From contig JAETSX010000007.1 in the NCBI GenBank assembly GCA_021769425.1, positions 1 through 64,000 of the forward strand: a stretch of 64,000 bases of DNA, given 5' to 3'. Made by a program: the position numbers and the translations under genes. Shown piece after piece: positions 13,762 through 53,593 of this stretch. The stretch is from Eubacterium sp. GTDB taxonomy: Bacteria; Bacillota; Clostridia; Lachnospirales; Lachnospiraceae. The notes under the pieces were generated by a model that saw nothing but the letters and a program-made list of their open reading frames with translations, searched no databases and had not been told where the DNA came from. Position 1 is the first letter of the stretch; each line of letters opens with the position of its first letter.

Positions 13762-13794
13762 AAAGGCTGCTTTGGCTTCCATGCTGCAGCCTTT
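13762..13794 (-). terminator. Hairpin at the end of the injection-system operon
   Basis: AAAGGCTGC and GCAGCCTTT (13762-13770 and 13786-13794) form a perfect 9-bp stem that includes the stop codon region of the last gene. There is no obvious U-tract, so its efficiency is uncertain. Confidence 0.45.
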
Positions 13795-14335
13795 ACTGCT
13801 CCTGCATCAGCCTTTCCACTGTCCTCATCGCCTCCTGCACGGTATCTCCGTCCAGAACCAGAATCAATACGCTGCACAGAAGTTCATAAATATCCATCAT
13901 CAGCTCGATAATATCCACACACTTTTCCAGTTCGTCTTCGCTGTCCAATTCTGTCAGCATTGTATACCGCATCCCAATGGTGTGTTCCGGTTCCTCATCA
14001 TCCTGCATATACAGAAGCTGACCCACAGAAATCACCTTGTTCAACGTGTTAATCATCTGCAGAATCACTAATTCCGTCAGCGTTCCCGGGCTCTCTTTCA
14101 TCATCCCGTCCAGGCGAAGCTGCCCGTAAAACTGCATCATGCTGCCATAATCCGGCAGATCTATAAAATTACAGGTAAGATCCAGGCTTAACTCCTCGCT
14201 GATTTCCAGGCCTATCACCAGAGCATCCAGCGGCGCCTCCTCCCCTTCTTCCAGAAATACGCTTTCCAGTTCATATTCTTCTTCCAGGTGCGTTTTCAGC
14301 CCCATTAAGCCTTCCCGCAATTCTTCTTTTTCCAT
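13793..14335 (-). CDS. Small acidic protein, last gene of the injection-system operon
   Basis: A 180-residue, strongly acidic protein (starts MEKEELREGLMGLK; many Glu/Asp and Leu/Met) with alternating strand/helix pattern and no membrane segment. The size, acidity and single-domain look recall the YbjN/type III chaperone-like fold, but that is a guess. It lies 57 bases after the AAA+ ATPase in the same operon, so a role as adaptor or chaperone for that ATPase or for a cargo is plausible. No family is firmly recognised. Confidence 0.75.
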   Translation of the reverse strand: MEKEELREGLMGLKTHLEEEYELESVFLEEGEEAPLDALVIGLEISEELSLDLTCNFIDLPDYGSMMQFYGQLRLDGMMKESPGTLTELVILQMINTLNKVISVGQLLYMQDDEEPEHTIGMRYTMLTELDSEDELEKCVDIIELMMDIYELLCSVLILVLDGDTVQEAMRTVERLMQEQ

Positions 14336-14392
14336 TACTTGCCTCCATTCTGCCCTGCAGCATAAATGTTTACGCCCACGGCCAAACCAGTT

Positions 14393-16867
14393 CTATATTG
14401 ATATCTTGTATCCATAATACTCTTTCAATTCTGCCTTTCCAAGAATTTTTCCCGATTTCTCATATTCCTGCTGCAGCGCCGTCATAATATGCTCCATCCC
14501 GGTAATTTCCTGCCGGGAAGCAGCGATAAAGGCGGCGTTTAACGCAATATTTTTGATAGAAGCCCCGGAAATCTCGAAATTCTCTGACAGATAAGGAATG
14601 TCTATGTCCTTCTGCAGAGGCATCTGCCTCGGAAAAACTTTCTCCCAGAGCAGGGCCCTCTGCTCTTTCTGGGGAAAAGTAAACCGGATGATATACTTCA
14701 TCCTCCGTTTATATGCGTCGTCAAAATTCTGCATTAAATTGGTGGCCAGGATGGTAATCCCATCGTATTCTTCCATTTTCTGCAGCAAATATGCGGTCTG
14801 GGCATTGGCGCTGATGTCTCTGGCGTCCGACACGTCCACCCGCTTGCCGAACAGCACGTCCGCTTCGTCAAAAAACAGAATACTCCGGCTCTTTTTCACT
14901 TCGTCAAAGATTTCCCGCAGATTTTTCTGGGTTTCTCCGATGTATTTGGACAGCACGCCGGAAAGATCCACTTTATATAATTCCAGATTCAGCTCTCTGG
15001 CAATCACCTGAGCCGCCATCGTTTTTCCCGTGCCCGGAGGCCCCGCAAACAGAAGGGAAACCCCTCTTCCATAGGCAATCTTATCCTGAAAGCCCCACTG
15101 CTCATAAACTTTGCCCCGATAAGCCACCTGGCTGCAGGCCTGGCGCAGCAGCTCTTTGGGCCCTTCCTCCAGCACCAGATCCTCCCAGGCATAAGCCGCA
15201 TTCACCCGGCTGGCACGCTCGCCCAGCCGGTGGGAAATCTTCTGCTGACAGGCCTGATATAAGAGAGCGGCAGATACCGGAACCTGCCCCTGAGCCCTAT
15301 TTGTAATGCCGGCATCCGGCGGGGCAGGATACAGGCGTTCCCTATTTGTAATGTCGGCGTCAGACGGGGCAGGATTTAAGCGGACAGCCAAAACCGGGGC
15401 CTGATCCCTGGCCTGCCGGCAAGCAGATTCTGCCGCTTCCCTGATAATCCCCGGCGTAAAATCAAACTGCGCCGCCAGCCTGTCATACAGAGAAGCTGCT
15501 GTCTCTCCGGCAGATTCTGCCTCCGAGTCCTGCTGCAGATTCCGGCTGCGATTGCACGGAGATTGAAGAGATGGGGGATCTTCTGCCTCCAAGTCCTGCT
15601 GCAGATTCTGAGCGTCCAAAAACGCTTCCTGCTTCCCCATATTTTCCGCCAGAAATTCCTGCCACAGACGGCTCCTCTCCTGTATCGTGGGAAAACGCAT
15701 CCGGAATTCTTCCGTCTGATATCCGAAAGGATACTCGCCTTCCAGCGCATCGGCGCCCGGCTCCTCTTCCACCGTCAAGAAAATATCACGGAAAAACAGT
15801 GAAGCCCGCCGAAGGATTGCCTGTGCAGTCCGGCGCTTTTTCTTCTCACCGGCCCAGAGCGCTTCCCAGTGGCAGAATGCCAGAAGCGCCCGATCCAGCA
15901 CCGCACGCACTGCCGCTTCCCCCACCGCTTCTCGTATCTGTTCCTCGCTTCTGTCCGCCGCTTCCCTGAGATCGAAAAACAGCACGCCAAACCCCAGGCT
16001 GCCGGCTGCCCGGCGAATCTGCAGCTTCTTTCCGCTGCCGCAGGGGCCCCGCAGCAGAAACAGCCTTCCCTTCTGCTGGGCTGCACCTTTTACCGGCTGG
16101 CCGCTCACTGCACCTTTTGCCGGCTGGCTGCCCATCACATTTTCTGCCAGACGGCGGCTAATTGCCTCCGCTGTCTCCTGGTTAATATTCAGCCCGGCTT
16201 CTGTCCCGCTGCCGGGAATGTAAAGCTGATATTCTGCTTTCCGGTTCAGTAAATCTGATTCATAGAAAAACACAAAATCAATTAAGTCCTTGGAAAGCTT
16301 CAGCCGCCAGGAAAGCTCGCTTTCCTGAGAGGCCCCTTTCCCGCCGAAGATACAGCAGAGCATTTCTTTCCTTGCGAAAACCTGATGGATCATGGCGTTT
16401 TGTTCCAATTCCTCCATGGTATACATCTTCACACACAGATCCAGAGAGGGATACCGCCAGGCAAGATCGTCCTGGAGATAGCAGTACAGCCGTTCATATT
16501 CCCGGTTCAGTTCCGGCGCCATGGCAAGGCAGGCCATGAACTGTTCAAACTCCGTCAGCTCCAACTTCCGGAGCATATACTCAAAGGGCAGCATCACCCC
16601 GCTTTTAATCGTACGGTATGCCTTGTCATGAAATTCCCGCCACCGGGCAAACAGCGCTTTCCGTTCTCTGCGATAAGCTTTCCGATCCATATGGGAAAAA
16701 GCGTCCTCTAAGACATTGGAAAGTTCTTCCTGAAATAATCTGGTATTGTACACATGCCTTATTCTCCCGTCTTCTCCTAGGCGCACAGCATACCTGGTAT
16801 AAAGGCTGATTTCTTCTTTTACCAGGACAAGCAGCTCCTGGAAATATTCCTCCTGTCCCGAAAACAC
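14393..16867 (-). CDS. Double-AAA+ ATPase of the injection system (Afp15/Pvc15-like)
   Basis: An 824-residue CDC48-type ATPase. The second AAA+ domain is complete: Walker A G-P-P-G-T-G-K-T-M-A-A near residue 610, Walker B I-L-F-F-D-E-A-D-V-L-F near 665, then sensor and arginine-finger regions (A-T-N-L, Y-K-R-R-M-K-Y-I-I-R-F). The first module at about 270 has a damaged P-loop (G-P-C-G-S-G-K-K, with Lys in place of Ser/Thr), so it probably does not hydrolyse ATP. Between them is a Gln/Ala/Pro-rich linker with two internal duplications (N-L-Q-Q-D-x-E-A-E and P-A-P-x-D-A-x-I-T-N-R). In Afp/PVC systems such an ATPase is needed for assembly of functional particles. A paralogue lies at 50548. Confidence 0.92.
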   Translation of the reverse strand: MFSGQEEYFQELLVLVKEEISLYTRYAVRLGEDGRIRHVYNTRLFQEELSNVLEDAFSHMDRKAYRRERKALFARWREFHDKAYRTIKSGVMLPFEYMLRKLELTEFEQFMACLAMAPELNREYERLYCYLQDDLAWRYPSLDLCVKMYTMEELEQNAMIHQVFARKEMLCCIFGGKGASQESELSWRLKLSKDLIDFVFFYESDLLNRKAEYQLYIPGSGTEAGLNINQETAEAISRRLAENVMGSQPAKGAVSGQPVKGAAQQKGRLFLLRGPCGSGKKLQIRRAAGSLGFGVLFFDLREAADRSEEQIREAVGEAAVRAVLDRALLAFCHWEALWAGEKKKRRTAQAILRRASLFFRDIFLTVEEEPGADALEGEYPFGYQTEEFRMRFPTIQERSRLWQEFLAENMGKQEAFLDAQNLQQDLEAEDPPSLQSPCNRSRNLQQDSEAESAGETAASLYDRLAAQFDFTPGIIREAAESACRQARDQAPVLAVRLNPAPSDADITNRERLYPAPPDAGITNRAQGQVPVSAALLYQACQQKISHRLGERASRVNAAYAWEDLVLEEGPKELLRQACSQVAYRGKVYEQWGFQDKIAYGRGVSLLFAGPPGTGKTMAAQVIARELNLELYKVDLSGVLSKYIGETQKNLREIFDEVKKSRSILFFDEADVLFGKRVDVSDARDISANAQTAYLLQKMEEYDGITILATNLMQNFDDAYKRRMKYIIRFTFPQKEQRALLWEKVFPRQMPLQKDIDIPYLSENFEISGASIKNIALNAAFIAASRQEITGMEHIMTALQQEYEKSGKILGKAELKEYYGYKISI

Positions 16868-16887: not shown

Positions 16888-19347
16888 TTACATTCCTGCA
16901 ATTAGGGCATCCTTGAAGGCATCCCGATTATTAGCCTGGAGCAATGAGGCATAATTCACGCCCATACCACTCAAACTCTCATCAACTTTTTCATATCTTT
17001 TCATGATATTGCCAACTTCCGCTTTCTTTTCAGCGGTAGGTTCGCCCTCCAAGGCAGCGGCTGCTCCCCGCAGTCCATATTTCTTGTCGTCGGCAATCCC
17101 TTTCACCATCCCGTAAAGCCTGTTTTTTATCATTCCTGTCTCTTCCTGCTTCCCTGTGCCTCCTTTATCTCCCATACGCTTTTTAATAAAATGATTTGCA
17201 ACGCTGCTTCCCAGCAATCCCACGCTTGAAACCAGGCCTGCTTTCCCGCTTAAATCCTTCAGAGTCTCGTCCTTCTCATTATAAAGGCTGGCAGTTTTCA
17301 GAGCATTAGATCCAAGCCCTAAAACGGTTGAAATAAGATTTGATACGCCTATCTGCGCTTCTCTCATCTTTTTCTTTCTGACTCTTCGGAATCCTAGAAA
17401 CAGTATCACAGGTTCCTTATCTGCATCAGTGACATTCTCTCTTTGCACAAAGCTTGCGGCTCTTTTTACAAATTGTTTTCTCTGCAGGGTGCCTTCATCG
17501 CCTGATTCCCTTTTCTTTTTCTTCTTCTTTTCCTCTGTTTTCCTCTTCTCTTCCTCTTTTTTCCCCTTCTTTTCCTCTTTTTTCTCCTTTCTTTTCAAGC
17601 GCCGCGCACGTATTCTCTCTCTAAGCGTTTTTTTCCTTTCGGCCGGCGGAAGTTCTTCCCTTCCTTCCTCTTCTTCCTCTTCTTCCTCTTCTTCTCCATT
17701 CGCTAAGTGATTGCCCGCATTAATATCACTATTATCATTACTACTATCACTATTATCATTACTACTATCACTATTATCAGTATCATCATTTGGCAAAGGA
17801 GCCCCACCATCATTACCTGGCGCAAGATTGCCGCCGGCTGGAAGATCCTGCTGGACTAAATTTCCTCCCTCCTCCGCATAACGCTTCATCGCTTCCTCTG
17901 CTTCTTTCGCCTGTGCATCTTCAATCTCATTTGCTTTGTCAATCTCCCCTCTCATAGTGTGCAGACCATTCAGCTGAGCGGTAATTATTCCCATCTGCCC
18001 TACCATACCTGAAATCGTCGCCACTTTATCCGCCACCTTTGCCACCAATCCCTTTCCTCTTCCATTGAAAGCCTCAATGGCTTTTGCAAGAGCAGCCGCT
18101 TTCGACAGAGTATTAGCCAAATCAGTAACAATACCGATTACCATAAATATCTTTTCACTTATTTTGAGCTTTTTTCTACCCTTTACCAGGGCCACTACTT
18201 TCTTGATCAGTCCCCGGATGGAATTTACGCCAGCAATGATACTTGAAACCATGCCAACTATGGAATTCGTCTTGCTGTTTTTAAAACCTTCGTCAAAATA
18301 ACTTGCCACGCCGGTAACCCCGCCGGTTATCTTTGCAATCTGTCCCGCCTGATCCATCAAGTGGCCTGCGCCTTTAACCTTTGAAGAATTCATAAAGCGA
18401 GAAAAACGGTTCGGCCCTTTGCCCGCGTCCTTTTTCTGCAATGCTTTCTCTTCACTTGCCGGCTCCTTACCCTCATCCATCATTCTTAAATGAATCACGG
18501 CCCGGTACAATTTCCCCTCTTTTCTGGTCTGATATACTTTTTGCTTCAATTTCAGAAATTCTATCTCTTCCTCGCTGGCTCCTTCTTTGGGAAAAAACGT
18601 CTCCTCAGATACATGTAAAACACTCAGATCTTTCAGCGTATCGAAAGCTCTGTTTGGATCAGCGTCAGGCTGTTCAACTTCCTGCTCTCCTACCCCGGCA
18701 TTTGCCGCTGCGGCGGCAACCTCCATGTTTAAAGCGTCTAAGAGTCCTAAATATTCCGAACCTTTTTGTTTTTTTACTTTTTCCCTTACTTTTTTCGCTC
18801 CTTTTACTTTTTCTTTTTCTGCTATTTTTGCTTCTTTTCCTGCTTCTTTTTCTGCTTTTTTTGCTTCTTTTTCTGCCTTTTTTTCCTCTCTTTTCTGCTT
18901 TCTCTCCGCCCTCCATTCTTTGCTTCCTTTTTTGGGCTTATGAGGCTGCTCACGATTCTCAATCAACGGCTGTTCTTCATGATTCGGAGAATCAAAAGTC
19001 TCTCCTACAGTCGAACTGCTGCTTTCTACAGTGTTGTTTGAACCTCCAACAACAACATCATCGTCATCATCGTCATCTTCATCATCATCGTCGTCGTCAT
19101 TATTATTATCATTTTTATTTTCACTTGCTACTTGACCTGCCAGTCTATCCTCGGCTCCCGGAATGCCATTACTATTTCCCCTGGCTCCCGGAATGCCATT
19201 ATTATTTCCTAAATTCTGGCTTCCCATCGGCTGAATCGGAACATTTGTCGACCCATTAGTATCCTTATCATTTTCTCCGCGGTCTTCCTGAGTATCCTCA
19301 CTGCTTTCTTCATTCTCGCTGTTTCGCACTTCTTCTATTTCCGGCAT
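16888..19347 (-). CDS. Charged low-complexity protein of the injection system, candidate cargo or tape measure
   Basis: An 819-residue protein with no recognised family. Residues 1-135 are disordered and acidic, with two N-G-I-P-G-A repeats and a long Asp run. Residues 140-205 are a Lys/Glu/Ala coiled coil (A-E-K-E-A-K-K-A-E-K-E-A-G-K). Residues 330-480 contain hydrophobic, Gly/Ala/Ser-rich helices (S-I-V-G-M-V-S-S-I-I-A-G-V, I-F-M-V-I-G-I-V-T-D-L-A). Then come a second Ser/Asn/Asp run, a Glu run, a Lys/Glu run and a final helical domain. By gene order it sits directly before the AAA+ gene, where the tape measure lies in Afp/PVC loci. A disordered N-terminus followed by membrane-active-looking helices would also fit a payload. 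Function unassigned. Confidence 0.8.
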   Translation of the reverse strand: MPEIEEVRNSENEESSEDTQEDRGENDKDTNGSTNVPIQPMGSQNLGNNNGIPGARGNSNGIPGAEDRLAGQVASENKNDNNNDDDDDDEDDDDDDDVVVGGSNNTVESSSSTVGETFDSPNHEEQPLIENREQPHKPKKGSKEWRAERKQKREEKKAEKEAKKAEKEAGKEAKIAEKEKVKGAKKVREKVKKQKGSEYLGLLDALNMEVAAAAANAGVGEQEVEQPDADPNRAFDTLKDLSVLHVSEETFFPKEGASEEEIEFLKLKQKVYQTRKEGKLYRAVIHLRMMDEGKEPASEEKALQKKDAGKGPNRFSRFMNSSKVKGAGHLMDQAGQIAKITGGVTGVASYFDEGFKNSKTNSIVGMVSSIIAGVNSIRGLIKKVVALVKGRKKLKISEKIFMVIGIVTDLANTLSKAAALAKAIEAFNGRGKGLVAKVADKVATISGMVGQMGIITAQLNGLHTMRGEIDKANEIEDAQAKEAEEAMKRYAEEGGNLVQQDLPAGGNLAPGNDGGAPLPNDDTDNSDSSNDNSDSSNDNSDINAGNHLANGEEEEEEEEEEGREELPPAERKKTLRERIRARRLKRKEKKEEKKGKKEEEKRKTEEKKKKKKRESGDEGTLQRKQFVKRAASFVQRENVTDADKEPVILFLGFRRVRKKKMREAQIGVSNLISTVLGLGSNALKTASLYNEKDETLKDLSGKAGLVSSVGLLGSSVANHFIKKRMGDKGGTGKQEETGMIKNRLYGMVKGIADDKKYGLRGAAAALEGEPTAEKKAEVGNIMKRYEKVDESLSGMGVNYASLLQANNRDAFKDALIAGM

Positions 19348-19377: not shown

Positions 19378-22185
19378 TCAGAACTTTTCAATTACTGTTT
19401 CAATTTCTTCCTCCGCTGCAAGTTTATAATACTTATCACACCGGTACAGATATTCCTTCGCTGCCTTATCCTTCCGGTGCTGTTTCAGCACTTCCACAAA
19501 AACAAGCCTTGCTTCATAGAACTTCTTTGCCACAAACAGCCCCACACCCTGTTCAAATAACTGCCGGGTCTGCTCTTTATAATAGAATTCTTCTTCGGAA
19601 TCCCCGTCGTATACGTCATACACCCGCTCATAGGAATTGTCTGCCGCCAGATAAATATTTCCCAGATACCTGGCATGGTAATGCTCTTCAAAATCCGGTA
19701 TCTGCTTATAGACCAGATGGGTAATTAGAATATGGGCGCCGTATTTATCTCCTTTCAGCCGCAATGCTTTAGCCAAATCAGAATGGGCGGAAATCGTTGT
19801 GGCTTCCATCCTCTGTTCATGCCCAATGACGCCAATCATCACGCGTCCGTAGCTGATGGCAATAGTTCTGCCGTTGCCGGGCATCGTCCGTTCCAGCAAA
19901 TGCTGGATATCAATGGCCGCATCCAGCGCCTCTTTGCTGCTGGGACAGCCGTATGCTTTTCGGACAGCTTTATTTTTATTTCCCTCTGTCCTCTGGCTGG
20001 CTGCAGGAACATCTGTACCGGGTAAACCGGAAACTTTCTCCGTAAAGAAAGCCGACAGCCCGGTATCCTCAAAATGCTCCACCACGCCGGAATGGCTGTT
20101 GATGGGTTCCACCAGCATAGACAATACCTGATTGATGTCCATGCACACCTGTTCTTCCGAAGATGAAACCCTCTGTTTTGGATAATCCATGGCATGCAGC
20201 GACAGAATGGTAAAATCTCCGATCATCTGATCTCCCAGTTTCACTTCCTGAATAGATTCTTTTCCCAGCAAATCAAGGATTTTGGCTGGAATAAACTTAT
20301 AGTAACCGTCTGACATCCCCTGAATGTCCTGTACATACTTTTCAAGCTCCAGTGACATCTGGTTAAAAGCCGAGGAGATATCTGCCACTTCATCATGCCC
20401 CCGCACCGCAACCGTTACTCCCAGGTTTCCGGACGCCAGCTTTCCGGCACATTCCTTTAATGCTTTCAAAGGCCGCAGGAAAATATAGAGAATCGCCAGC
20501 AATGCCGCTGTCAAAGCCAACAGCAGAGCAGAAGAAACATTTTTTAGGTTCCACTGGTAATACCACACCTGGTAATCCTGAATATTTCCATCCACTGACA
20601 CAGCCAGCAGTCCGTATTTTGTCCCGTCCCCCAGCACAAGAGGAATAAATTGATTGTTCCGCTTTCCGTTCCTGTTTTCATCCGTCATATTTATTATCTC
20701 ACCGGAATCAAAAGCCTGATAAATTCCTTCTGCAGTCTCCGGATCATACACCCATTCCACCGGAACTCCGCTGTATTCCGACATGGACTCACTGACATAC
20801 AGTTTTCCTTCTTCATCGGAATGAAAAATACTGTAAACATACACACACAGCTCCCCAATTCCCTTATCCTCCTTCAGGCTGCGGTGACTCAGCATCAACG
20901 CCCGATCTCCGGAAGGAAATTTATTCGCGTCTTCTTCAATGTTATGTACAATATCCTCTTTCAGCACTTTTCCCAGCGCTGACAAAGCAAAGGTCTGGTT
21001 GCCCCCCAGCTGCTCCCGCATACTCTGTTCTATCCAATATTCCAAAAAGCCGTCCATTACCAAAAGCCCCAGTAAAAAGACCAGGCAAAGCCGGACTAAA
21101 ATCGTCTGAAAATGGTATTTTACCCGGGCCATCCAATACAGGCACAAAATCACCGCCGTCAGCGTAATTCCTCCGTAACTCCATGCCATTCGATGCAAAA
21201 CTGCAGGCAGGGTAAGAGAAATTTCGCTGATATCCCGATGTTTCCCGTCCTGATAAGAGCAGATAGAAACCCGGCCATTCCCATCCTCCACCCCTGCGCA
21301 AAAGCCAATTCTGGTACAGTCCGGACTCTGAAGATTCTGAAAGTTAAATTCCGGTGCATCCTTCTGAATCTCTTTCTGAGAAAATACTACTTCTGATTTT
21401 CGTTCTGTCAAGTCGATGTAGCGGATACATTTTTTCTTATAATCCAGTACATAGGCCCCTGTCCCATCATCGGAAAGGCTTTTGAATCTTCCGCTTTTGC
21501 CGGTAATCCCCTTTATTTTGATCAGCTCTTTGGCTCCGATCTCCTTGGCTCGGACTTCTCCTGCATAATCTGTCCACAGTAAAATTCCGTCTCTGCTTAA
21601 AAAAAACTGGGCGTTCAAATAAGGATATTCCATAGGCGCCTCTTCCAAAATCTCCTTATTTCCCTTCTGATCCAGAGAAAACAGTCCGGCAGTTTTCGCC
21701 TCTTTTTCTGAATCCGGTATGCCTACATAATAAAGCCGCCCATCCCGGATATGCTGAACTGAAATCTGACTGTATTCATCGGCGTCCTCCGTCAAATCAT
21801 ACTCTGTTTCCACCAGCTTTCCCCGTTTAAAATCACATTGATACACTTTGCAGCTGATTCCGGCCCAAGATTCTACGTTGATTTCTTTTAAAAGCACATA
21901 AACATTTTCCTGGCTGTCAAAAAAAATCTGGCTGATCATCCGGTATTTTTCCCTGTCGTGCTTTTTACAGACAATCACATCCCCCTGCTTTCCCTCTGAA
22001 TCTGAACGAATAATTTTTAAATCTTCACTTTTCCCCCGATCTACATAATACAGATATCCATCTTGTAAATGAATCTGTTCAATATAATTTAATTTAATTT
22101 TTCTTCCATACAAGGTAACCGCTAAAATTGCAAAAATCGCCGCAGCCGCAATGCAGGAGATGCCATACAAACTTTTTTTATTCAT
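19378..22185 (-). CDS. Membrane receptor with HAMP and degenerate class III nucleotidyl-cyclase domain
   Basis: A 935-residue membrane protein. TM1 is at about residues 7-27, followed by an outside domain of about 300 residues with propeller-like repeats (D-G-Y-L-Y-Y-V-D, D-G-R-L-Y-Y-V-G). Two more helices near 335-380 and a second outside domain lead to a last helix near 550-570, a HAMP segment (L-R-P-L-K-A-L...N-Q-M-S-L-E-L) to about 625, and a class III cyclase-like domain (about 650-860). Its first metal site is changed (L-S-L-H-A-M-D where F-x-D-I-x-G-F is expected), but G-V-I-G-H-E-Q-R-M-E-A-T-T-I-S and the A-L-R-L motif remain. The tail is TPR-like. It is probably a sensor or scaffold rather than an active cyclase. 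The start follows TGAGGAAAAAGAT. Confidence 0.85.
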   Translation of the reverse strand: MNKKSLYGISCIAAAAIFAILAVTLYGRKIKLNYIEQIHLQDGYLYYVDRGKSEDLKIIRSDSEGKQGDVIVCKKHDREKYRMISQIFFDSQENVYVLLKEINVESWAGISCKVYQCDFKRGKLVETEYDLTEDADEYSQISVQHIRDGRLYYVGIPDSEKEAKTAGLFSLDQKGNKEILEEAPMEYPYLNAQFFLSRDGILLWTDYAGEVRAKEIGAKELIKIKGITGKSGRFKSLSDDGTGAYVLDYKKKCIRYIDLTERKSEVVFSQKEIQKDAPEFNFQNLQSPDCTRIGFCAGVEDGNGRVSICSYQDGKHRDISEISLTLPAVLHRMAWSYGGITLTAVILCLYWMARVKYHFQTILVRLCLVFLLGLLVMDGFLEYWIEQSMREQLGGNQTFALSALGKVLKEDIVHNIEEDANKFPSGDRALMLSHRSLKEDKGIGELCVYVYSIFHSDEEGKLYVSESMSEYSGVPVEWVYDPETAEGIYQAFDSGEIINMTDENRNGKRNNQFIPLVLGDGTKYGLLAVSVDGNIQDYQVWYYQWNLKNVSSALLLALTAALLAILYIFLRPLKALKECAGKLASGNLGVTVAVRGHDEVADISSAFNQMSLELEKYVQDIQGMSDGYYKFIPAKILDLLGKESIQEVKLGDQMIGDFTILSLHAMDYPKQRVSSSEEQVCMDINQVLSMLVEPINSHSGVVEHFEDTGLSAFFTEKVSGLPGTDVPAASQRTEGNKNKAVRKAYGCPSSKEALDAAIDIQHLLERTMPGNGRTIAISYGRVMIGVIGHEQRMEATTISAHSDLAKALRLKGDKYGAHILITHLVYKQIPDFEEHYHARYLGNIYLAADNSYERVYDVYDGDSEEEFYYKEQTRQLFEQGVGLFVAKKFYEARLVFVEVLKQHRKDKAAKEYLYRCDKYYKLAAEEEIETVIEKF

Positions 22186-22228
22186 ATCTTTTTCCTCAGA
22201 ATCTATTTCCATCGCCTGAAACATTTCT

Positions 22229-36066: not shown

Positions 36067-36092
36067 AACTGTTCCCTCTTTTACATCTCTGG

Positions 36093-44767: not shown

Positions 44768-44769
44768 AT

Positions 44770-45209: not shown

Positions 45210-45635
45210 TTAGGAAACCCTGGTCATTCCCTCATGGGCAATTTCAAGTGACTCAATTGCAACCTCAGAAGAAGTTGCATTGAAATCCGGCGCCGTATAT
45301 TTTGCCGGCCATGCATTGATTACCTGCCAGGATGCCGTGGCAGTTTCAGTCTCATCCAAAATAGTAATGGTAATTGTCTTGCGCTCCACTTCACCTTCCA
45401 CGCCGGCAATCATCCATTCATACATTACCATAGAGTCTGCAACGCCCTGTTTCAACGTAATGTTCCCATATTTTTTCAATCCCGGAAGCTTCAAAGGCGT
45501 CTGAACCATATCGCCTTCCCGGTATTCAATCACATCAATGGATGCGTCAAATCCGGATGCTTCCGAAAATCCTCCGGCCTCTAAGCCGTCTATTTCCACC
45601 TTATATCTAAATTTTCCATATGGAGTACTTGCCAT
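45210..45635 (-). CDS. Inner tube protein 1 (gp19-like, main tube)
   Basis: A 141-residue tail tube protein (TIGR02241/gp19 type): F-R-Y-K-V-E-I-D-G-L-E-A-G-G-F-S-E-A-S-G, L-K-L-P-G-L-K-K-Y-G-N-I-T-L-K-Q-G, and S-E-V-A-I-E-S-L-E-I-A-H-E-G. It polymerises as hexameric rings to make the tube that is driven through the target. The RBS is GAAAGGAGCGTTGTG. A hairpin separates it from the sheath gene. Confidence 0.95.
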   Translation of the reverse strand: MASTPYGKFRYKVEIDGLEAGGFSEASGFDASIDVIEYREGDMVQTPLKLPGLKKYGNITLKQGVADSMVMYEWMIAGVEGEVERKTITITILDETETATASWQVINAWPAKYTAPDFNATSSEVAIESLEIAHEGMTRVS

Positions 45636-45754: not shown

Positions 45755-47491
45755 TTATACGGAATCGCCTGTTTTCTGTGAAATCCTGAAGATTACAAAT
45801 TCAGCAGGCTTCACCGGTGCAATGCCGATAACACAGACCAGTCTTCCATTGTCAATATCATCCTGGCTCATGGTATTTCTTCCGCAATTTACAAAAAATG
45901 CTTCTGACGGCGCAGATCCTGCAAGCGCCCCATTTCTCCAGAGCCCTGTCAGGAATACGTCAATGGTCCGTTTCACACGTACCCACAAAACCTCATCATT
46001 GGGCTCAAATACTGCCCAGTTGGTATTCGCCTTAATGCTCTCTTCAATGAAGATAAACAGTCTGCGCACATTTATGTATTTCCAGCTTGGATCGCTGCTG
46101 GCTGTACGTGCACCCCAGACACGGATGCCCTGTCCCGGGAAAGAACGGATCAGGTTCACTCCCTTGGGATTTAAGATATCCTGCTCGCCTTTGTTAAACT
46201 GGCAGTCCAGTCCCACACAGGCCCGCACTGTCTCATTGGCCGGCGCCTTATGCACTCCTCTTGAAGTATCGCTGCGGGCATAAATTCCAATCACAGAACC
46301 GGAAGGCGGAATCGCCATGTTCTTCTTATCCAGCGGATCAAAAACCTCCAGCCAGGGATGGTACATTGCAGCATAATTGCTGTCCACAATGTCCCTGTGG
46401 GCAATGATGTCATCCATCTTTCTTGCGTCTCTGGGCATATCCAATACCGCAAACCGGCTGGCAAGATTCTCACAATGGGCAACCAGCATTAACTGCACGT
46501 TGGGATCCACCACTCCCGGAACCGCCATAATGGAAACATTGTCATTATCCAAAAATGCCTGTATGCCCGTTCTCTTTCCCGCTCCCTTATCCACGCCGAT
46601 AAAGTCTGCCGCGCTGATATTGGAAACAGAGCCGTTGCTGCCGCCCTTTAAAGAAATGACGCAGAATGCCTTCTCCGGATCTGCCCCTGCAATCTCATCA
46701 AAAGGAGCTATGGCTTCGGTCTTTGGTTTTCCCACATACTCTGCGGTAATCAAATCCGATTTTGCCGTCTTCTTCTCAATATAATTGGGAATTGACACGT
46801 TAAAGGACAAATTCTCATAAAATTCTACAATATCATCAAATTTTACTTCCAGATTAAATTCACAGGTGGAGATCACCTTAGTTGGAAGCAGATTCTTGTC
46901 CACAACATCCTGTTCAAACTCTTTTTCAAAAACAATAATATTGTCCTGGCTTCTGACCACACGATTGTATACCACATTTGTCATATCCTTGTATACAACC
47001 ACATCTCCCTCGTGGAAACCTGCCGAACTTTTGACGGAATACTGTTTTCCGTCCGCTGTCTCAAGCTCCTCTAAAATCTGTGTCTTAGCCTTGCTTGCCG
47101 GGGTTACTACAATACTCATGCTATTGCCCCATAACCCAGGATTCTTCGCCTTTAAGCGAAGCACGGCATCCTCAGCCGGAATTCTTGCCTGGGCAGGCTT
47201 CGCATCCTGCGGCGCCACACGGGAGATAAAGCAGCGGGAACCGCCGTTAACAAAAAAGTGTTCTACCGCATAAGCTAAAAATCGGTATTCCCCGTACTCA
47301 TTTTCAGAAAGATACCCACCGAATTTCCTCTTAAAATCTGCAAAATTGGTAACAAGCTGCGGAACTCCCTCCGCCGGGCCTCTCTCGGCAAGTCCGATAA
47401 ATCCGGCTGTACTCGTACCAACGCCTTCCATGGGCTTTCCGCCTGAATCAAATTCCTCTACATATACGCCTGGTGATAAATATTCAGCCAT
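45755..47491 (-). CDS. Contractile sheath protein
   Basis: A 578-residue tail sheath subunit, first gene of the operon. The N-terminus L-S-P-G-V-Y-V-E-E-F-D-S-G-G is the sheath signature. Other conserved parts are F-I-G-L-A-E-R-G-P (about 30), I-M-A-V-P-G-V (about 320), and the C-terminal F-I-E-E-S-I-K-A-N-T-N-W-A-V-F-E-P-N-D with V-R-V-K-R-T-I-D-V-F-L. Contraction of the assembled sheath drives the tube. The start has only a weak GGAAG; a strong AAAGGAGG is about 45 bases further upstream without a normal start codon near it. Confidence 0.97.
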   Translation of the reverse strand: MAEYLSPGVYVEEFDSGGKPMEGVGTSTAGFIGLAERGPAEGVPQLVTNFADFKRKFGGYLSENEYGEYRFLAYAVEHFFVNGGSRCFISRVAPQDAKPAQARIPAEDAVLRLKAKNPGLWGNSMSIVVTPASKAKTQILEELETADGKQYSVKSSAGFHEGDVVVYKDMTNVVYNRVVRSQDNIIVFEKEFEQDVVDKNLLPTKVISTCEFNLEVKFDDIVEFYENLSFNVSIPNYIEKKTAKSDLITAEYVGKPKTEAIAPFDEIAGADPEKAFCVISLKGGSNGSVSNISAADFIGVDKGAGKRTGIQAFLDNDNVSIMAVPGVVDPNVQLMLVAHCENLASRFAVLDMPRDARKMDDIIAHRDIVDSNYAAMYHPWLEVFDPLDKKNMAIPPSGSVIGIYARSDTSRGVHKAPANETVRACVGLDCQFNKGEQDILNPKGVNLIRSFPGQGIRVWGARTASSDPSWKYINVRRLFIFIEESIKANTNWAVFEPNDEVLWVRVKRTIDVFLTGLWRNGALAGSAPSEAFFVNCGRNTMSQDDIDNGRLVCVIGIAPVKPAEFVIFRISQKTGDSV

Positions 47492-47770: not shown

Positions 47771-50551
47771 ATGAGGAACGAAAACAGCAAAATTCAGATA
47801 CCAACGATAAACAAAGGCTACACAAAGCGAGGCATCGACGCCCTTCTTTCTTCTTTGGAAACAGGAATTATTATATTGAATGCCGGGGCCGGGTACGGAA
47901 AAACCCAGGCCCTGGCCAATTATGTGCGCAGTTTTCCCGGGAAAAGCGCCTGGTACAGCATCAGCGAAACGGATAATGACCTGATGTCTTTTATCCAAAA
48001 TTTTACCAAATCCGTCCAGTATGCCCTTGGAAATTCCAGTGGGAATTTTGCCGTTTCAGCGCCTCTTTTGGAAAACATCGACATTGTAATGGAACAGCTC
48101 GTGATCTGGCTGGACGAGCGAATTGACTTTCTGAATATTATTCTGGATGATTTCCAGGAAATCACGAACCCCGACATTTTCAATCTGCTGGATATTTTAA
48201 TAGAAACTATGGAGCGCAAAATCCGTCTGTTCCTTGTGGAAAAACGCGCGCTTCCCCGCTTTTTCGACAAATATATCCAAAGCGGATATGCCGTCTGTCT
48301 TGGCATGGAAGAGCTGAAATTCACGCCGGAAGAAATCGCTTCCCTCTTAGAGCCTTCCAGCGACAGCCGCCTGCATTGGGCTAAACTGATCTGCGATTTT
48401 ACCGAAGGATGGCCGGTGGGCATTGCACAGATCATGCTGCAATTGCGGCAGCAGAAAAAACCTGTTACCTCAGACATCATACAAAGCATTTGCGAAAAAC
48501 TGGAGGTTTCCGATTATTTTATGACAAGGGTATATCGGATGCTGCCTTTCGATATTCAGACTTTTCTGAAAAAAACTGCCGTTTTGGATTATATGACTCC
48601 ATCCATCTGCAATAAAATCGCAGGAATCCACAACTCAGACAGCCTGCTTCACTATCTGGTAAATGAAATGCTTTTTGTCCAGGCTCTTGGAGACGGCAGC
48701 AATTTATACCGCTACCATTCCATTTTCCAGCGGTTTTTGTTATCTCAGACACCTTTGGAAGAACAGCAGGAAACCCTTCGGACTGCCGCTTATTTTCTGC
48801 TGAAAACCGGCGACAGGATTCAGGCTGCCGAATATGCCTGCCGGGGCAGCGCAGCGGATATTGTCCAGGCTGTGCTGGAAGTTTCCGGAGATTCCATGTT
48901 AGAAGAACGCCTTTACGGGACCATGGATCGGTGGTTTTCATTCCTTGAAACCAACCATTGTGAATTGACTCCCAGAGCCAGATTCATTTACGGCAAATAT
49001 TTGATGGCATTAGGCCGCACAGCCCAATCCCTTCAGCAGATTGAGCAGTCCGGAAAAGCCTTTTACGAGGAAGGCAGATTGAAAGATTACAAAAAGGTCC
49101 TCTTGTTCGCTGCAGCGGTAAAACGCAGATCCGGCGACCTCCAACTGACTGACGCATATTTAAAACAAGCTGAAGAATTTCCGGAAAATAACTGGAATGA
49201 GACAGCTAAAGCCGTCTGCACCGAGCAGGTAAAGTTAAAATGCTGTCTCCACCAGTTAGAAGAGGCCCTCGCCCTTCTTGACGAACAGACCCAAAAAGGA
49301 ATCCGGTTTCAGCCGGGCAGCTTCCTTGCCGCCGCCTGGCAGGTTCTCCCGAAACTGGTTTTGGATCCAGTGCAGCGCCCTGTCTCCTGTGATATGCAGA
49401 CGGAGACTGATTCAAGGACGAACTCTTCTGCATACAGCATGGGAACAGAGACCATTCCGGAAGGATTTCTTCTCAGAAACTGCATCCTGGCAGAACAGAT
49501 GAAGTCTTCCTACTTGTCGGGGGATTATCCGGCTGCCGGACATGCCGCAAAGAAAATGATTCAAAATTCTGAATATGAAACACTGCAGACGGCAATTGCC
49601 TGGGAAATGCTTGCTGTTTTATCCTGGGATGGCGGAAATTACCGAAAAGCCATTGAACAATCCCGGACCGGCAGCGCTTTTTTGCAGAAAAACCACATAT
49701 GGAATCCCGGATTCACCCCAAAGCATCAGCAGATTTTAAATGAAATCCAGTCCTTTCACCGGAATACCATAGACGCCCGCAGCCTGATTACCCAAAAAAT
49801 AAACCAGGATGCTACTGACCCAAAGGAATCCGGAAAAATCAAAATCCAGTGTATGGGCTGTTTCTCGGTGTTTCTTCCCGCTTCTCCAAATCAGGAAATG
49901 AAATGGCGGACCAAAAAAGCAAGGGAATTGTTTGCCTACTTATTCCATCTTCAGGGAAACAGCGTTTCCAGAGAAGTTCTGGTGGAATTATTGTGGCCGG
50001 ACGCAGGAATAAAAAGCGCAATTGCCCTGTTCCATACCACCCTCTACAGTATCCGGCAGTCCTTTGGACAGGAAGGCCTTGAGGATTTAATTTCTTATGA
50101 GAATAAGAAATATTCTCTGAATATGCAGTTTGTAGACTCTGACTTAGCGGAGCTGACTGCCTATTTCAAAGATGAAACCGCATGTACCGGCAATCCGGAA
50201 AAGATCATCTCTCTTTATCCCGGAAGCTACATGGGAAACAGCGGCTATCTGTGGTCCTACGGAACGGCTAAGGAACTGGAGAACCAGTACCTGAGCGTGC
50301 TCCGTTCAGGCGCGTCCATGCGGACCTCCCAGAAGCTGCCGGAAGCCGCCATACCATTTTTCCAGAGAATGTTGGAAGCCGATCCCTATAACGAAGAAAT
50401 CCTGACCCGGTTGATTGGATGTCTGTACCAAAGCGGCAGGCAATCCGAAGCAAAACAGCAGTACGATCGTATGCTGAAACTGTATCAGGAAGATCTGGAA
50501 CTGGATTTTAAAAAGACCTTTAAAGAGATTGTGGCACAGGAGGATTTATGA
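47771..50551 (+). CDS. MalT-like ATPase with C-terminal BTAD domain, probable activator of the injection system
   Basis: A 926-residue regulator. The P-loop N-A-G-A-G-Y-G-K-T is at about residues 37-45, Walker B-like I-I-L-D-D-F near 123, followed by helical TPR-like repeats. The C-terminal part from residue 690 has an OmpR/SARP-type winged helix (K-A-R-E-L-F-A-Y-L-F-H-L-Q-G-N-S-V-S-R, L-V-E-L-L-W-P-D-A) and a BTAD module (F-F-Q-R-M-L-E-A-D-P-Y-N-E-E-I-L). Such STAND ATPases are ligand-controlled activators that assemble on promoters. Being divergent from the sheath gene, it most likely controls the structural operon. The stop overlaps the next ATG. Confidence 0.88.
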   Translation: MRNENSKIQIPTINKGYTKRGIDALLSSLETGIIILNAGAGYGKTQALANYVRSFPGKSAWYSISETDNDLMSFIQNFTKSVQYALGNSSGNFAVSAPLLENIDIVMEQLVIWLDERIDFLNIILDDFQEITNPDIFNLLDILIETMERKIRLFLVEKRALPRFFDKYIQSGYAVCLGMEELKFTPEEIASLLEPSSDSRLHWAKLICDFTEGWPVGIAQIMLQLRQQKKPVTSDIIQSICEKLEVSDYFMTRVYRMLPFDIQTFLKKTAVLDYMTPSICNKIAGIHNSDSLLHYLVNEMLFVQALGDGSNLYRYHSIFQRFLLSQTPLEEQQETLRTAAYFLLKTGDRIQAAEYACRGSAADIVQAVLEVSGDSMLEERLYGTMDRWFSFLETNHCELTPRARFIYGKYLMALGRTAQSLQQIEQSGKAFYEEGRLKDYKKVLLFAAAVKRRSGDLQLTDAYLKQAEEFPENNWNETAKAVCTEQVKLKCCLHQLEEALALLDEQTQKGIRFQPGSFLAAAWQVLPKLVLDPVQRPVSCDMQTETDSRTNSSAYSMGTETIPEGFLLRNCILAEQMKSSYLSGDYPAAGHAAKKMIQNSEYETLQTAIAWEMLAVLSWDGGNYRKAIEQSRTGSAFLQKNHIWNPGFTPKHQQILNEIQSFHRNTIDARSLITQKINQDATDPKESGKIKIQCMGCFSVFLPASPNQEMKWRTKKARELFAYLFHLQGNSVSREVLVELLWPDAGIKSAIALFHTTLYSIRQSFGQEGLEDLISYENKKYSLNMQFVDSDLAELTAYFKDETACTGNPEKIISLYPGSYMGNSGYLWSYGTAKELENQYLSVLRSGASMRTSQKLPEAAIPFFQRMLEADPYNEEILTRLIGCLYQSGRQSEAKQQYDRMLKLYQEDLELDFKKTFKEIVAQEDL

Positions 50552-52755
50552 AGGAATACCAGAATTACGGGGAATTTTTAAATGATTTAGTAATATGGGG
50601 GGACTGTGTCTGCCGGCCGCAGCCTTCCGAAGATATTCACATGGACTGCTCTGAGATCCGCAGTCTGCAGCCTTCTAAGGACATTCACATGGACCGCTCT
50701 GAGATCCGCAGGCCGCAGCTTTCTCAGGACATTCACATGGACTGCCCTGAGAGCTGCCGGCCGCAGCCTTCCGAAGATATTCACATGGACTGCTCTGAGA
50801 TCCGCAGTCTGCAGCCTCCCAAAGGCAGAAATCCCAAAGAAGCCTTTTCTGCCCTGCTGAAGAAAGCTTCCATCAGTGCGGATCACGGCGTTTTTTCCCC
50901 TTTTCTCTATCTTGCTCTTTTGGCCCGTCTGGAATGGACGGAAATGCTGCTGTTTGCAGCTGCACTCTATACAGGACTAAAGGGAGAAAGCCTTACTCCG
51001 GGCGTCTGGCAGTTATTTCTGACGGAAGAAAGAAGCGATTTCCAGGATAGCGGGAAAACAGACTCTTTCGAATGGGAACTGTTTTGTCAGTCCGCCCCTC
51101 TTCTTTATGAACGGGAGTGGGATGAGACTTTTTTTGGCGTCCGCCTTAGAATTGTTCCTCGGATATTCCTTTTTCTGAAAGGAATCCTGGCAGAACCTAT
51201 CCATATTCCCGGCCTGAACTGGTATTATCAGAAAGAAGATTTTCCCGGCAAGCCAGCCCATTCCCATTATTCCAGCAAATCCACTGCCGCCGGACATAGT
51301 CAGCAGGCAAACGCCCTGCCCTATCTGGGGAAAAATATCCGCCTCTGGGAAAGAATTGCCTCCTGCATTTCTGAGATTCCTGGACAGAAGCTGGTATATC
51401 TGAACGGCCCCAAGGGAAGCGGACGGAAACTGAATTACGCTTATCTCGCCGCCCTTTTCGGGAAAAATCTTGCCGTGATAGACTTCGAGCAATTGGAATC
51501 CCAGGCCCAGCTTCGGGACATTCAGACAGAATGCCTTTTGAATCACTCCATGTTTGTCATTGAACTGCCGGCGGACGAAACAGACCTTTCTCCTCTTCTA
51601 AACTGGCTTCAGGAAGAAGAAACTGTTTTTTTGCTGGGCGAGAAACCAAATCTTGTGAAAATTAACACGTTTCAGCGGCAATACCTCCCCTTTTCCATCC
51701 ACCCCCAGGATATGTGGAAAGACAAAGAACTGTATGAACAGCTAACCCTTGACTACCAGTGGGAACAGGACAGGGTGCGCACCGATTTCCTTAGCCGCTA
51801 CAATTTCCTGCCCGGCAGAACACGGGAAATTCTGGAACTTGCCAAATCCTATTCTTTCAGCGCAGGAACCTTCCGGATTACCGACGAACATTTGAAACAA
51901 GCTGTCCTGGGCGTGTCCTCCCATTCTCTGGATCGGTATGCAAAAAAAATACGCAGCATTTATCAGATGAAGGATCTGATTCTTCCGGATCTGCCCAGAC
52001 AAAAACTATTTCATGTCATAAACCGCATCCGCAACCGGAAACTCGTCTATGAAGAGTGGGGATTTCTGGAAAAATCAGCTTACGGCAACGGCGTATCCAT
52101 GATTTTCGCCGGCCCGCCGGGCACCGGTAAAACAATGGCCGCACAGGTCATGGCCGGGGAACTGGGCATGGAGCTTTACCGGGTGGAACTGCCTGCCGTT
52201 GTGGACAAATATATCGGGGAAACAGAGAAAAAGCTAAACCGCATTTTCGGGGAAGCGGAAAAAACCATGGCGATTCTCTTCTTTGACGAAGCTGACGCAC
52301 TGTTTTCCAAACGGACAGAAATCAAAGAATCCAATGACAAATACAGCAATATGGAAATTGCCTTTTTACTGCAGAAAATGGAAGAATATGAAGGCATCAG
52401 CATTCTGGCAACTAATTATCTGCAGAATTTTGACGGCGCGTTCCGGCGCAGAGTCAGCGATATCATAGATTTTCCTCTGCCCGACGCCCTCCTGCGTCAG
52501 CAAATGTGGAAGTCCATGATCCCCTCAAAGCTTCCGGTATCAGAGGAAATTGATTTCCGCTTTCTGGGAGAACAATTTGAAGTATCAGGCAGCGCCATCA
52601 AAAATTCTCTGATTTATGCCGGTTTTCTCGCTGCCGAAGCAGCAGAGCCATTGCTTACCATGGAACGAATCCTGAAAGGACTCAGCCACGAACTGGAAAA
52701 AAGCGGAAAAAAACTCAGCCGAAAGGAATATGGAGAATATGGGCATTTATTTTAA
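50548..52755 (+). CDS. Second double-AAA+ ATPase, paralogue of the operon ATPase
   Basis: A 735-residue ATPase with an intact second AAA+ domain: Walker A G-P-P-G-T-G-K-T-M-A-A-Q-V-M-A near residue 518, Walker B I-L-F-F-D-E-A-D-A-L-F near 575, then A-T-N-Y-L and F-R-R-R-V-S-D-I-I-D-F. The first P-loop is broken (G-P-K-G-S-G-R-K at about 290). The C-terminus (E-V-S-G-S-A-I-K-N) matches the paralogue at 14393. Residues 25-88 consist of four 16-residue repeats (Q-P-S-E-D-I-H-M-D-C-S-E-I-R-S-L). It is coupled to the regulator by ATGA. Probable role: assembly, recycling or cargo handling. Confidence 0.92.
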   Translation: MKEYQNYGEFLNDLVIWGDCVCRPQPSEDIHMDCSEIRSLQPSKDIHMDRSEIRRPQLSQDIHMDCPESCRPQPSEDIHMDCSEIRSLQPPKGRNPKEAFSALLKKASISADHGVFSPFLYLALLARLEWTEMLLFAAALYTGLKGESLTPGVWQLFLTEERSDFQDSGKTDSFEWELFCQSAPLLYEREWDETFFGVRLRIVPRIFLFLKGILAEPIHIPGLNWYYQKEDFPGKPAHSHYSSKSTAAGHSQQANALPYLGKNIRLWERIASCISEIPGQKLVYLNGPKGSGRKLNYAYLAALFGKNLAVIDFEQLESQAQLRDIQTECLLNHSMFVIELPADETDLSPLLNWLQEEETVFLLGEKPNLVKINTFQRQYLPFSIHPQDMWKDKELYEQLTLDYQWEQDRVRTDFLSRYNFLPGRTREILELAKSYSFSAGTFRITDEHLKQAVLGVSSHSLDRYAKKIRSIYQMKDLILPDLPRQKLFHVINRIRNRKLVYEEWGFLEKSAYGNGVSMIFAGPPGTGKTMAAQVMAGELGMELYRVELPAVVDKYIGETEKKLNRIFGEAEKTMAILFFDEADALFSKRTEIKESNDKYSNMEIAFLLQKMEEYEGISILATNYLQNFDGAFRRRVSDIIDFPLPDALLRQQMWKSMIPSKLPVSEEIDFRFLGEQFEVSGSAIKNSLIYAGFLAAEAAEPLLTMERILKGLSHELEKSGKKLSRKEYGEYGHLF
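50620..50811 (+). repeat. Four 48-bp tandem repeats in the second AAA+ gene
   Basis: Four 48-bp in-frame units encode 16 residues each; the first and fourth are identical in DNA, the middle two have diverged. The repeats lie before the first AAA-like module. Confidence 0.9.
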
Positions 52756-53593
52756 CGAGCCTCAGAAAAAACAACGCTGGGAATCGGGACAGGCAATTCT
52801 TCACCGGGAAGCCAGCGAATCAAAAGACAAAAAACAGCAGCAGAAAACCAGCGAATCAAAGGAACTAAAACAGCCGGAAACTATAAAAAATTCTTACGGA
52901 AAGCTGAACTATCTGCATCATGGTAGAAAAAATGGTCAGGAACAACACGGTTTTTCACTGGAGGCTTTTGAAGCCCCCGGCACTCCCCTTCACACCGAAA
53001 AAGAAAAGCATCTTAATCCTGCCTCCATGAAAAAAATAAGACGAAACGGCAACCAAACGCTGTTTGCCTCGGAAGTTCCCCTGCATAACCAGGCCCTCTT
53101 CTACGATATGTCAGACAGTAAAAAAAGCGTCCGTTTCCTCAAATATATGAAGCTCCTGCTGAAAACCCAGGGCCACCAGACCCTGCAAGATGCCTTTGGC
53201 TTCTTAGACCAGGAATCCGAACACAGGGAACTGGAAGTTTTAAAAAAGACATCCGGAGAACTGTCTCCGGAAGAATTCCAGTGGAAAAATCAGTCCATGA
53301 ATACCCTGAACAGCCGGCTGCAACGGAAACAATCCAGAGAACGTCAGCTCTGTAAAGACCTGCAATTGCTGTTGGATCAGCGGCGCGAACAAGAGCGTAC
53401 GGCCGCTGGACGCCCCCTGCAGAAAGCAGCGGAAACTACACCGGAAAGCAAAGAAAAAAGACGGGCCGACAACTTCCCCAAAAGACATTTTGCTTCTGTT
53501 TCAGAAGATGCCGCCGTATCTTCTTCGGATACCTTCCCCGCTGCATCCGAAGCTCCGCCCGAAGAACAAGATTCCCCGGCAAAAACAAAATAA
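52730..53593 (+). CDS. Disordered, charged protein of the regulator operon
   Basis: A 287-residue Lys/Glu/Gln-rich protein with no recognised family. Residues 15-60 and 230-287 look disordered (S-K-D-K-K-Q-Q-Q-K, then Ser/Pro/Ala-rich end). A central helical part (about 120-225, K-Y-M-K-L-L-L-K-T-Q-G-H-Q-T-L-Q-D-A-F-G) may be the folded core. It overlaps the AAA+ gene by 26 bases. A second ATG three codons in is an alternative start. Position suggests a partner of the ATPase or of the particle. A strong terminator follows. Confidence 0.75.
   Translation: MENMGIYFNEPQKKQRWESGQAILHREASESKDKKQQQKTSESKELKQPETIKNSYGKLNYLHHGRKNGQEQHGFSLEAFEAPGTPLHTEKEKHLNPASMKKIRRNGNQTLFASEVPLHNQALFYDMSDSKKSVRFLKYMKLLLKTQGHQTLQDAFGFLDQESEHRELEVLKKTSGELSPEEFQWKNQSMNTLNSRLQRKQSRERQLCKDLQLLLDQRREQERTAAGRPLQKAAETTPESKEKRRADNFPKRHFASVSEDAAVSSSDTFPAASEAPPEEQDSPAKTK

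Follow-up and report, generated by a model that had tools for sequence, protein, structure and literature searches.

The window analysed here is the first 64,000 nucleotides (nt) of contig JAETSX010000007.1 from Eubacterium sp., a member of the Lachnospiraceae, and between 13.8 and 53.6 kb it carries what, as judged from its gene content, is a complete contractile injection system (CIS). On the minus strand, 23 genes follow one another from position 47491 down to 13793, and a divergent unit of three genes occupies 47771-53593 on the plus strand. Since the largest gap between neighbouring genes in the minus-strand run is 194 nt, this spacing by itself leads us to regard the run as probably one operon; promoter and terminator scans at both of its ends returned counts near chance. 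Searches with Pfam, NCBIfam and PHROGs found the core of the machine (sheath, tube, hub, spike, gp25, baseplate J, DUF4255, AAA+) as a single cluster, with four matches (hub PF05954, Tail_P2_I, CIS12, CIS13) lying under the curated cut-offs. The recognised tail parts are:

45755..47491, minus strand: sheath (Cis2-like), PF04984/PF17482, start moved from 47704
45210..45635, minus strand: inner tube protein 1 (gp19-type), PF06841 (3.8e-44)
44128..44568, minus strand: inner tube protein 2 (gp19-type), PF06841 (4.7e-13), start refined by eye
38546..39214, minus strand: CIS_tube/LysM adaptor (Cis7-like), PF19266 (2.9e-34), LysM by eye only
37293..38351, minus strand: hub (gpD-like), PF05954 (3.9e-6, under the Pfam cut-off)
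36517..37296, minus strand: spike (gpV), PF04717 (5.8e-22)
36093..36506, minus strand: gp25 baseplate wedge, PF04965 (1.1e-23)
33142..36096, minus strand: baseplate J protein 1 (Cis11-like), PF04865 (5e-10)
31001..33115, minus strand: baseplate J protein 2 (Cis11-like), PF04865 (1.8e-9)
29747..30925, minus strand: CIS12-like tail protein I, start refined by eye from 30982
28048..29775, minus strand: CIS13-like baseplate protein, NF053767 (1.6e-26, below the NCBIfam cut-off)
23362..23946, minus strand: DUF4255/Pvc16-type terminator, PF14065 (1.1e-26)
22617..23360, minus strand: CIS accessory protein, recognised by conservation among loci, start refined by eye
22229..22612, minus strand: DUF4280 PAAR-like tip, PF14107 (1.7e-28), start refined by eye

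The sheath consists of a single protein, and its gene is given as 45755-47491 because the alignment to a solved sheath begins at residue 72 (MAEYLSPGVYVEE) of an overcalled open reading frame (ORF). Its best-scoring solved match is 9ezm, the sheath of a haloarchaeal type VI secretion system (T6SS; E 1e-133, 450 bits), while the Streptomyces-type sheath 8bky reaches 376 bits. The CIS12-like protein matches NF053768 at 2e-33 (below the cut-off), TIGR02242 at 8e-21 (above it) and Tail_P2_I at 0.0038 (below the Pfam cut-off). The accessory gene 22617-23360 follows the DUF4255 gene, the position held by a gene annotated as 'carboxypeptidase regulatory-like' in the Streptomyces clavuligerus CIS (L181).

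The original prediction of a complete non-phage CIS is thereby sustained: the tail parts it listed were found by Pfam, albeit with the hub and Tail_P2_I matches below cut-off and the LysM domain seen by eye only, and the CIS13 relative is an addition to its part list. It had also stated that capsid, portal, terminase and lysis genes are absent, and no member of the head, portal, terminase or lysis families was found among 40 window proteins scanned or among ten more, namely one further window protein and nine of the 23 ORFs of at least 150 amino acids (aa) in the 20 kb that follow on the contig, the region outside the window where a check for such genes had been proposed. No fibre family (Afp13/Pvc13-like) appears among the Pfam, NCBIfam and PHROGs matches, a negative to be read in the light of the fast divergence of fibres. 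Of the marks of a canonical Gram-negative T6SS, neither the TssJLM membrane complex nor a two-protein TssBC sheath was found among the cluster proteins scanned, to which the search for them was confined.

A membrane and sensor module inherited with the sheath

Three genes of the run encode predicted membrane proteins that are foreign to the standard set of tail parts listed above:

27112..27984, minus strand: bitopic membrane pseudokinase
24051..27080, minus strand: membrane-anchored MORN-repeat protein with a Gly/Ser-rich spacer, PF02493 (6.7e-19)
19378..22224, minus strand: membrane sensor, HAMP (3e-9); its profile matches adenylyl cyclases (7e-16)

Sequence comparison and a structure model point to a kinase fold for the first of these, in which the beta3 Lys, the catalytic Asp and the DFG motif are absent at the aligned columns in all 16 rows; Lys and Arg are more frequent on the N side in eight of nine sequences, and the outer part is short, some 20-25 residues in which an IGT motif occurs. 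The MORN protein has a transmembrane (TM) segment at 76-94 with a positive-inside pattern, and its repeats are predicted to lie outside; a hydrophobic segment near the N-terminus, richer in Lys and Arg on its N side, recurs in 10 of 10 sequences. The sensor is laid out as an outer N-terminal part, a second sensor part, HAMP, a degenerate class III cyclase domain and a helical tail, and none of seven rows retains both metal-binding Asp residues, two rows having one each. On the evidence of these alignments, the catalytic residues are lost in both pseudoenzymes. In loci of both sheath subclades (see below), the CIS13 gene adjoins that of the pseudokinase, which is followed by the MORN gene or by the sensor and then the MORN gene.

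These membrane proteins are, with exceptions, coinherited with the CIS. Among 299 genomes of the host's family, 27 (the host included) carry the sheath. With a sensor profile used at E values up to 1e-20 and the output domain defined as model positions beyond about 287, this domain was found in 20 of the 27 sheath-positive and two of the 272 sheath-negative genomes; the sensor-HAMP half alone occurs in 29 genomes, one of them sheath-positive. The pseudokinase, at E up to 1.6e-7, is present in 16 of 27 versus two of 272 genomes, the sheath-positive matches being 11 at 1.2e-47 or better and five at 3.7e-8 to 9.6e-17. These totals count the genomes that supplied the profile rows; when such rows are left out, the figures become 13/20 versus 2/272 for the sensor (seven rows omitted, p 6e-16) and 7/18 versus 2/272 for the pseudokinase (nine rows omitted, p 3e-8). 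Of the two sheath-negative genomes with a pseudokinase match, G120 and G003, the former proved on reading to have a true kinase (HGDLKPEN plus DFG). Weaker matches (up to 0.001) in 40 more genomes mostly cover the first ~140 positions, as kinases would; one of these genomes, G086, has the sheath gene, which lies about 7 kb away from the match. The profile used (A1) misses some forms of the second clade that another profile (A2) detects, as in G180, where the protein is absent with A1 and matches at 1e-67 with A2. In a sample of 391 genomes at the level of the class, all five pseudokinase matches below 1e-60 fall in sheath-positive genomes, and 13 weaker ones (7.9e-8 to 9e-25, frames of 149-659 aa) include two sheath-positive genomes. 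In the open-licence literature, as far as its text was accessible, no earlier description of the pseudokinase/sensor/MORN module was found, nor one of a CIS with a MORN protein.

Variants of the module were also seen. In G278 (taken as [Clostridium] polysaccharolyticum), the gene after the sensor-like protein (L112:6782-8437) encodes, by eye, a HAMP protein whose output part looks like a PP2C/SpoIIE-type phosphatase, and the cyclase-like domain resides on a separate protein (L112:5772-6767). The second-subclade loci L186 (G180) and L187 (G080) have, between the MORN gene and the sheath, extra proteins with a single N-terminal hydrophobic segment, of 720 and at least 661 aa in G180 and at least 280 aa in G080. 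In G104, where the sensor profile has no match, an 875 aa protein downstream of the AAA gene has hydrophobic segments placed like those of the sensor. The two sheath-negative genomes with the pseudocyclase output domain carry it at G200:C20:5867-7069 and G125:C30:15146-16198, in frames of 947 and 921 aa.

Overlapping chaperone frames and a tape-measure candidate

Three further genes lie among those of the tube and the adaptor:

44770..45138, minus strand: tail assembly chaperone (G-like) carrying an A_AAT_TTT slippery site, phrog_508 (2e-6)
44588..44830, minus strand: DUF6760 (T-like part) in the -1 frame, PF20546 (4e-16)
39242..44107, minus strand: tape-measure candidate, 1621 aa, with helical composition and internal repeats

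The lambda-type G/GT tail assembly chaperones of phages are read from two overlapping frames next to the tube genes, linked by a -1 frameshift. The arrangement found here resembles this, and it differs in that it sits in a headless CIS and in its slippery heptamer, A_AAU_UUU. We compared 101 loci (80 named and 21 others including the window, with some genomes entered twice, e.g., L104 and G278); 12 lacking one of the two matches were dropped, and the 89 kept comprise 84 distinct chaperone sequences. In all 89, the DUF6760 frame overlaps the chaperone frame and is -1 relative to it. The heptamer stands in the zero frame in 88 of them, 87 detected by script and one (L100) by eye, the latter missed because its chaperone frame has an early stop in that assembly; the remaining locus, G242, has U_UUU_UUG (T_TTT_TTG) in the zero frame. 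For comparison, the heptamer occurs at seven of 48 [VLI]NF tripeptides in long ORFs elsewhere in the same loci. No DUF6760 start codon lies within the overlap in 27 of the 89 loci. DUF6760 is presumably read by a -1 frameshift from 44770-45138, which would give a G-T chaperone fusion. A_AAT_TTT was not seen in the overlap of the Paenibacillus and Haloferax relatives. The Haloferax larsenii locus (related to Halogeometricum) shares the order sheath-tube-(small gene)-chaperone-DUF6760-tube2, yet its DUF6760 has an ATG of its own in an ATGA overlap, where no slippery site of any kind was seen. A frameshift in a CIS was not found reported in the accessible parts of the open-licence literature, including a review of major tail proteins.

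A per-sequence search, on which the case for a downstream hairpin rests, found, for 72 of the 81 distinct sequences, a stem (at least five pairs, at least three of them G-C, starting within 3-14 nt), compared with 16% of mononucleotide shuffles, its outer pairs varying among A-T, T-A, C-G and G-C. This signal could stem in part from coding constraint, and two results count against the hairpin: no consensus structure emerged when a MAFFT alignment of this region was folded with RNAalifold, and the plain downstream folding z-score is weak (mean -0.90, n=60, eight below -2).

The place of 39242-44107 beside the chaperone suggests that this charged protein, encoded between tube protein 2 and the LysM adaptor, is the tape measure. 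Its counterparts in 15 loci range from 167 to 1621 aa, with forms of 191, 371 and 1268 aa in between, and are similar in their C-terminal tail; among the 21 loci compared, five (G149, G046, G176, G253, G174) were marked incomplete and G188 has no counterpart. The protein stays a candidate because the shortest forms would be odd rulers. Together with 16888-19347, it is also the fastest-changing relative to the congener whose sheath is 94% identical (40% identity over 303 residues and 33% over 238, respectively), the other genes of the run having 51-99% identity.

Remaining genes, surroundings and distribution

The genes that complete the two transcription units are:

47771..50551, plus strand: divergent STAND/BTAD-type regulator, PF03704 (1.5e-12), AAA part weak (0.005)
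50548..52755, plus strand: second AAA+ ATPase, PF00004 (6e-29)
52730..53593, plus strand: 287 aa protein without a family, matched in G056 and G687
16888..19347, minus strand: 819 aa protein without a family
14393..16867, minus strand: AAA+ ATPase (winged helix plus AAA), PF00004 (9e-32) and PF22977 (1e-14)
13793..14335, minus strand: 180 aa protein without a family, last gene of the run

Acting from the 279-bp divergent region, the regulator may govern expression of the CIS genes. The AAA+ ATPase of the original prediction is present, as two genes instead of one, and the large set of extra genes to which it could assign no function has shrunk, several now having a fold or domain (pseudokinase, pseudocyclase sensor, MORN, CIS13, tail chaperone); five remain without a family, i.e., 16888-19347, 13793-14335, 22617-23360, 52730-53593 and the tape-measure candidate. 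The 819 aa protein is one cargo candidate; neither it nor 13793-14335 was matched in the 20 other loci compared, some of them cut short, and the congener G687 has forms of 33% (over 238 aa) and 51% identity, respectively. Pfam matches to Sarcoglycan, LRR_5 and coiled coils were dismissed as composition effects.

The locus has chromosomal neighbours (carAB, a CLC channel, CheC, pantothenate synthesis), and beyond the window the following 20 kb carry a multicopper oxidase, ABC transport genes and mannosidases. The host genome has one sheath gene and possesses spo0A. In the same genus, two of 13 other genomes have the sheath (94% and 53% identity), and a genome of another genus has one of 91%. 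The congener with the 94% sheath shares the order of the run and the left flank (three genes), and none of seven right-flank genes tried was matched within 6 kb; a search for two flank proteins in three genomes gave no usable site. Among the named organisms with the sheath are [Clostridium] polysaccharolyticum and, at 92-94% sheath identity, Sporofaciens musculi and Petralouisia muris; the gene order is conserved in several genera, and in the class sample 21 of 391 genomes have the sheath at E up to 1e-20, several with less than 50% identity.

In a tree of 33 sheaths, the clostridial ones form a single clade (100/99). It is made up of G242 and two subclades, one with 11 rows and one with 17, and the latter includes rows named Oscillospiraceae, Anaerotignaceae, Anaerovoracaceae and Syntrophomonadaceae. 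That CIS loci exist in Clostridia is already known: Geller et al. (PMC8213781), in the portions at hand, report Firmicutes loci, including one with a Ruminiclostridium toxin, and a depletion of extracellular CIS (eCIS) in human body sites. In the open-licence literature on Lachnospiraceae, the term 'contractile injection system' was found only in a reference list.

Mode of action

We tentatively favour, at a little less than even chances, a cell-bound, signal-gated CIS that works like a T6SS in a monoderm cell. The CIS would be assembled in the cytoplasm, and the rim of its baseplate (Cis12/Cis13) would be docked to the cytoplasmic membrane by the bitopic pseudokinase and its partners; an external cue reaching the HAMP/pseudocyclase sensor would then release the CIS to contract, with the MORN protein extending into the wall or across it. 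Protein 39242-44107 would set the length, and 16888-19347 is one candidate for the cargo that would be injected into the target. This reading accords with the complete tail, the lack of a recognised fibre or lysis gene, the coinherited module, the predicted membrane topology and the best-scoring sheath 9ezm. Given the pseudokinase/sensor/MORN module, docking with gated contraction appears the most likely mode.

The haloarchaeal T6SS is described in the accessible text of PMC11566945 as membrane-bound and as killing on contact; the same text places the closest relatives of its Cis11 in the Bacillota and states that T6SSs have so far been described only in Gram-negative bacteria. The system of Halogeometricum borinquense shares with the locus the best-scoring solved sheath and two Cis11 (baseplate J) genes. 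It differs in its anchor candidate, a protein described as having six TM helices (PMC11566945), and the pseudokinase, sensor and MORN protein have no match at E 0.01 in a 37.7-kb Haloferax stretch. In Streptomyces, the membrane protein CisA is needed for firing, according to the available portion of PMC12237407, which describes its cytoplasmic part as mostly unstructured and its outer domain as solute-binding-like. Both systems have CIS12 and CIS13 relatives (here below the NCBIfam cut-offs) and, following the baseplate genes, a gene for a bitopic membrane protein, whereas the pseudokinase, pseudocyclase sensor and MORN protein set the present locus apart. Finally, YukC/EssB of the type VIIb secretion system (T7SSb) and TraF of Gram-positive type IV secretion systems (T4SS) indicate that bitopic pseudokinases can be hubs of secretion machines (PMC13037476, as far as its text was available). 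They share with our protein a cytoplasmic pseudokinase and one TM helix, and differ from it in its short outer part with the IGT motif and in the lack of profile similarity. Homology to YukC by sequence is unsupported: PF10140 has no match in the host genome, and hhalign gives a probability of 1.6%, in a test so insensitive that YukC itself scores 24% against kinases. YukC/EssB entries were not among the 50 structure matches listed in the Foldseek ranking, which excludes nothing.

Several observations weigh against a membrane-docked machine. Membrane attachment is inferred, as are firing and cargo; searched one at a time, the pseudokinase rows gave no Pfam match to a kinase or to YukC, so that the fold rests on profile and model. 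A strong pseudokinase match is missing from 16 of the 21 sheath-positive genomes of the class sample, including G626 with its 59% identical sheath, and seven of the 27 in the family have no sensor match; in G046, G085 and G104, the sensor is taken to be missing at this sensitivity because the assemblies are nearly unbroken. No toxin-immunity pairs were found in ten neighbours from four relatives (four each from G106 and G188, one each from G278 and G022), which comprise an amidase/DUF4214 protein, an AlgX-like protein, an MBOAT protein, a glycosyltransferase, an aldolase, a SpoIIE protein, an FtsH-type protease, an Mbeg1-like protein, a GHKL ATPase and one without a family. Moreover, the Streptomyces clavuligerus sheath branches nearer to the clostridial clade (92/82) than does that of Haloferax, which groups with Paenibacillus (99/91), in a tree whose outgroup branches are all long and for which the tool warns of false joins; by tblastn, the two score alike (455 and 452 bits). 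Sheath kinship therefore cannot decide the mode of action, and our confidence is lowered because neither comparison favours archaeal over Streptomyces kinship. As a separate observation, the Mbeg1-like protein (L112:8523-10064) lies directly after the module in G278 and is a possible cargo.

The main rival draws on the same parts. In a Streptomyces-like CIS for regulated death of the producer, particles would be free in the cytoplasm, and the membrane module would serve as a checkpoint, recruiting and firing them when the envelope is stressed. A sensor with degenerate enzymes fits such a checkpoint, and the lack of a recognised fibre, the BTAD-type regulator and, with the caveat of long branches, the position of the S. 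clavuligerus sheath agree with it; the best-scoring solved sheath speaks against it, as it belongs to an archaeal T6SS. On balance, we regard this alternative as unlikely, yet as a serious contender.

The original prediction had instead assigned the machine to the eCIS type. In the sense of a released particle we find this unsupported, since neither a fibre gene nor a lysis gene was recognised and the membrane and sensor module is coinherited with the sheath. An eCIS whose fibre is too divergent to recognise, for instance the CIS13-like or the MORN protein, would have the complete tail and the extended, repetitive build of the MORN protein in its favour; in addition, the part of PMC12923769 that was accessible mentions the rapid divergence of fibres and the presence of one fibre-attachment type in Bacillota. 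The N-terminal hydrophobic segment in every MORN sequence, the absence of lysis genes among the proteins scanned, and a pseudokinase and sensor with no evident role in a released particle make it improbable.

A frameshifted tail chaperone is a phage trait, and the sheath family is shared with myophages, but a tailocin or decayed prophage deserves hardly any credence and was rejected on gene content and sheath distance, given the DUF4255, AAA+ and CIS12/13 genes, the absence of head, terminase and lysis genes among the proteins scanned, the same gene order in several genera, and a best-ranked phage sheath of 26.5% identity (over 98% of the query) versus 36.6-52.9% in the 25 plasmid records listed.

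For the Clostridia at large, it is possible, though we hold it to be doubtful, that they possess a T6SS-mode CIS for monoderms in which a pseudokinase scaffold is the anchor, as in T7SS and Gram-positive T4SS, a pseudocyclase is the trigger, and a phage-type frameshifted chaperone is combined with a tape measure varying about tenfold in length. If the membrane-docked reading is true, the CIS would be the third Gram-positive secretion machine with a bitopic pseudokinase, after T7SS and T4SS. The locus offers concrete anchor and trigger genes on the bacterial side, in a family in which 27 of the 299 genomes sampled carry the sheath, and the conserved frameshift signal provides a phage-like step of CIS assembly that is easy to test. 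That the CIS genes travel with those of membrane sensor and scaffold proteins suggests a machine that may fire from within the cell envelope instead of being shed as a free particle.

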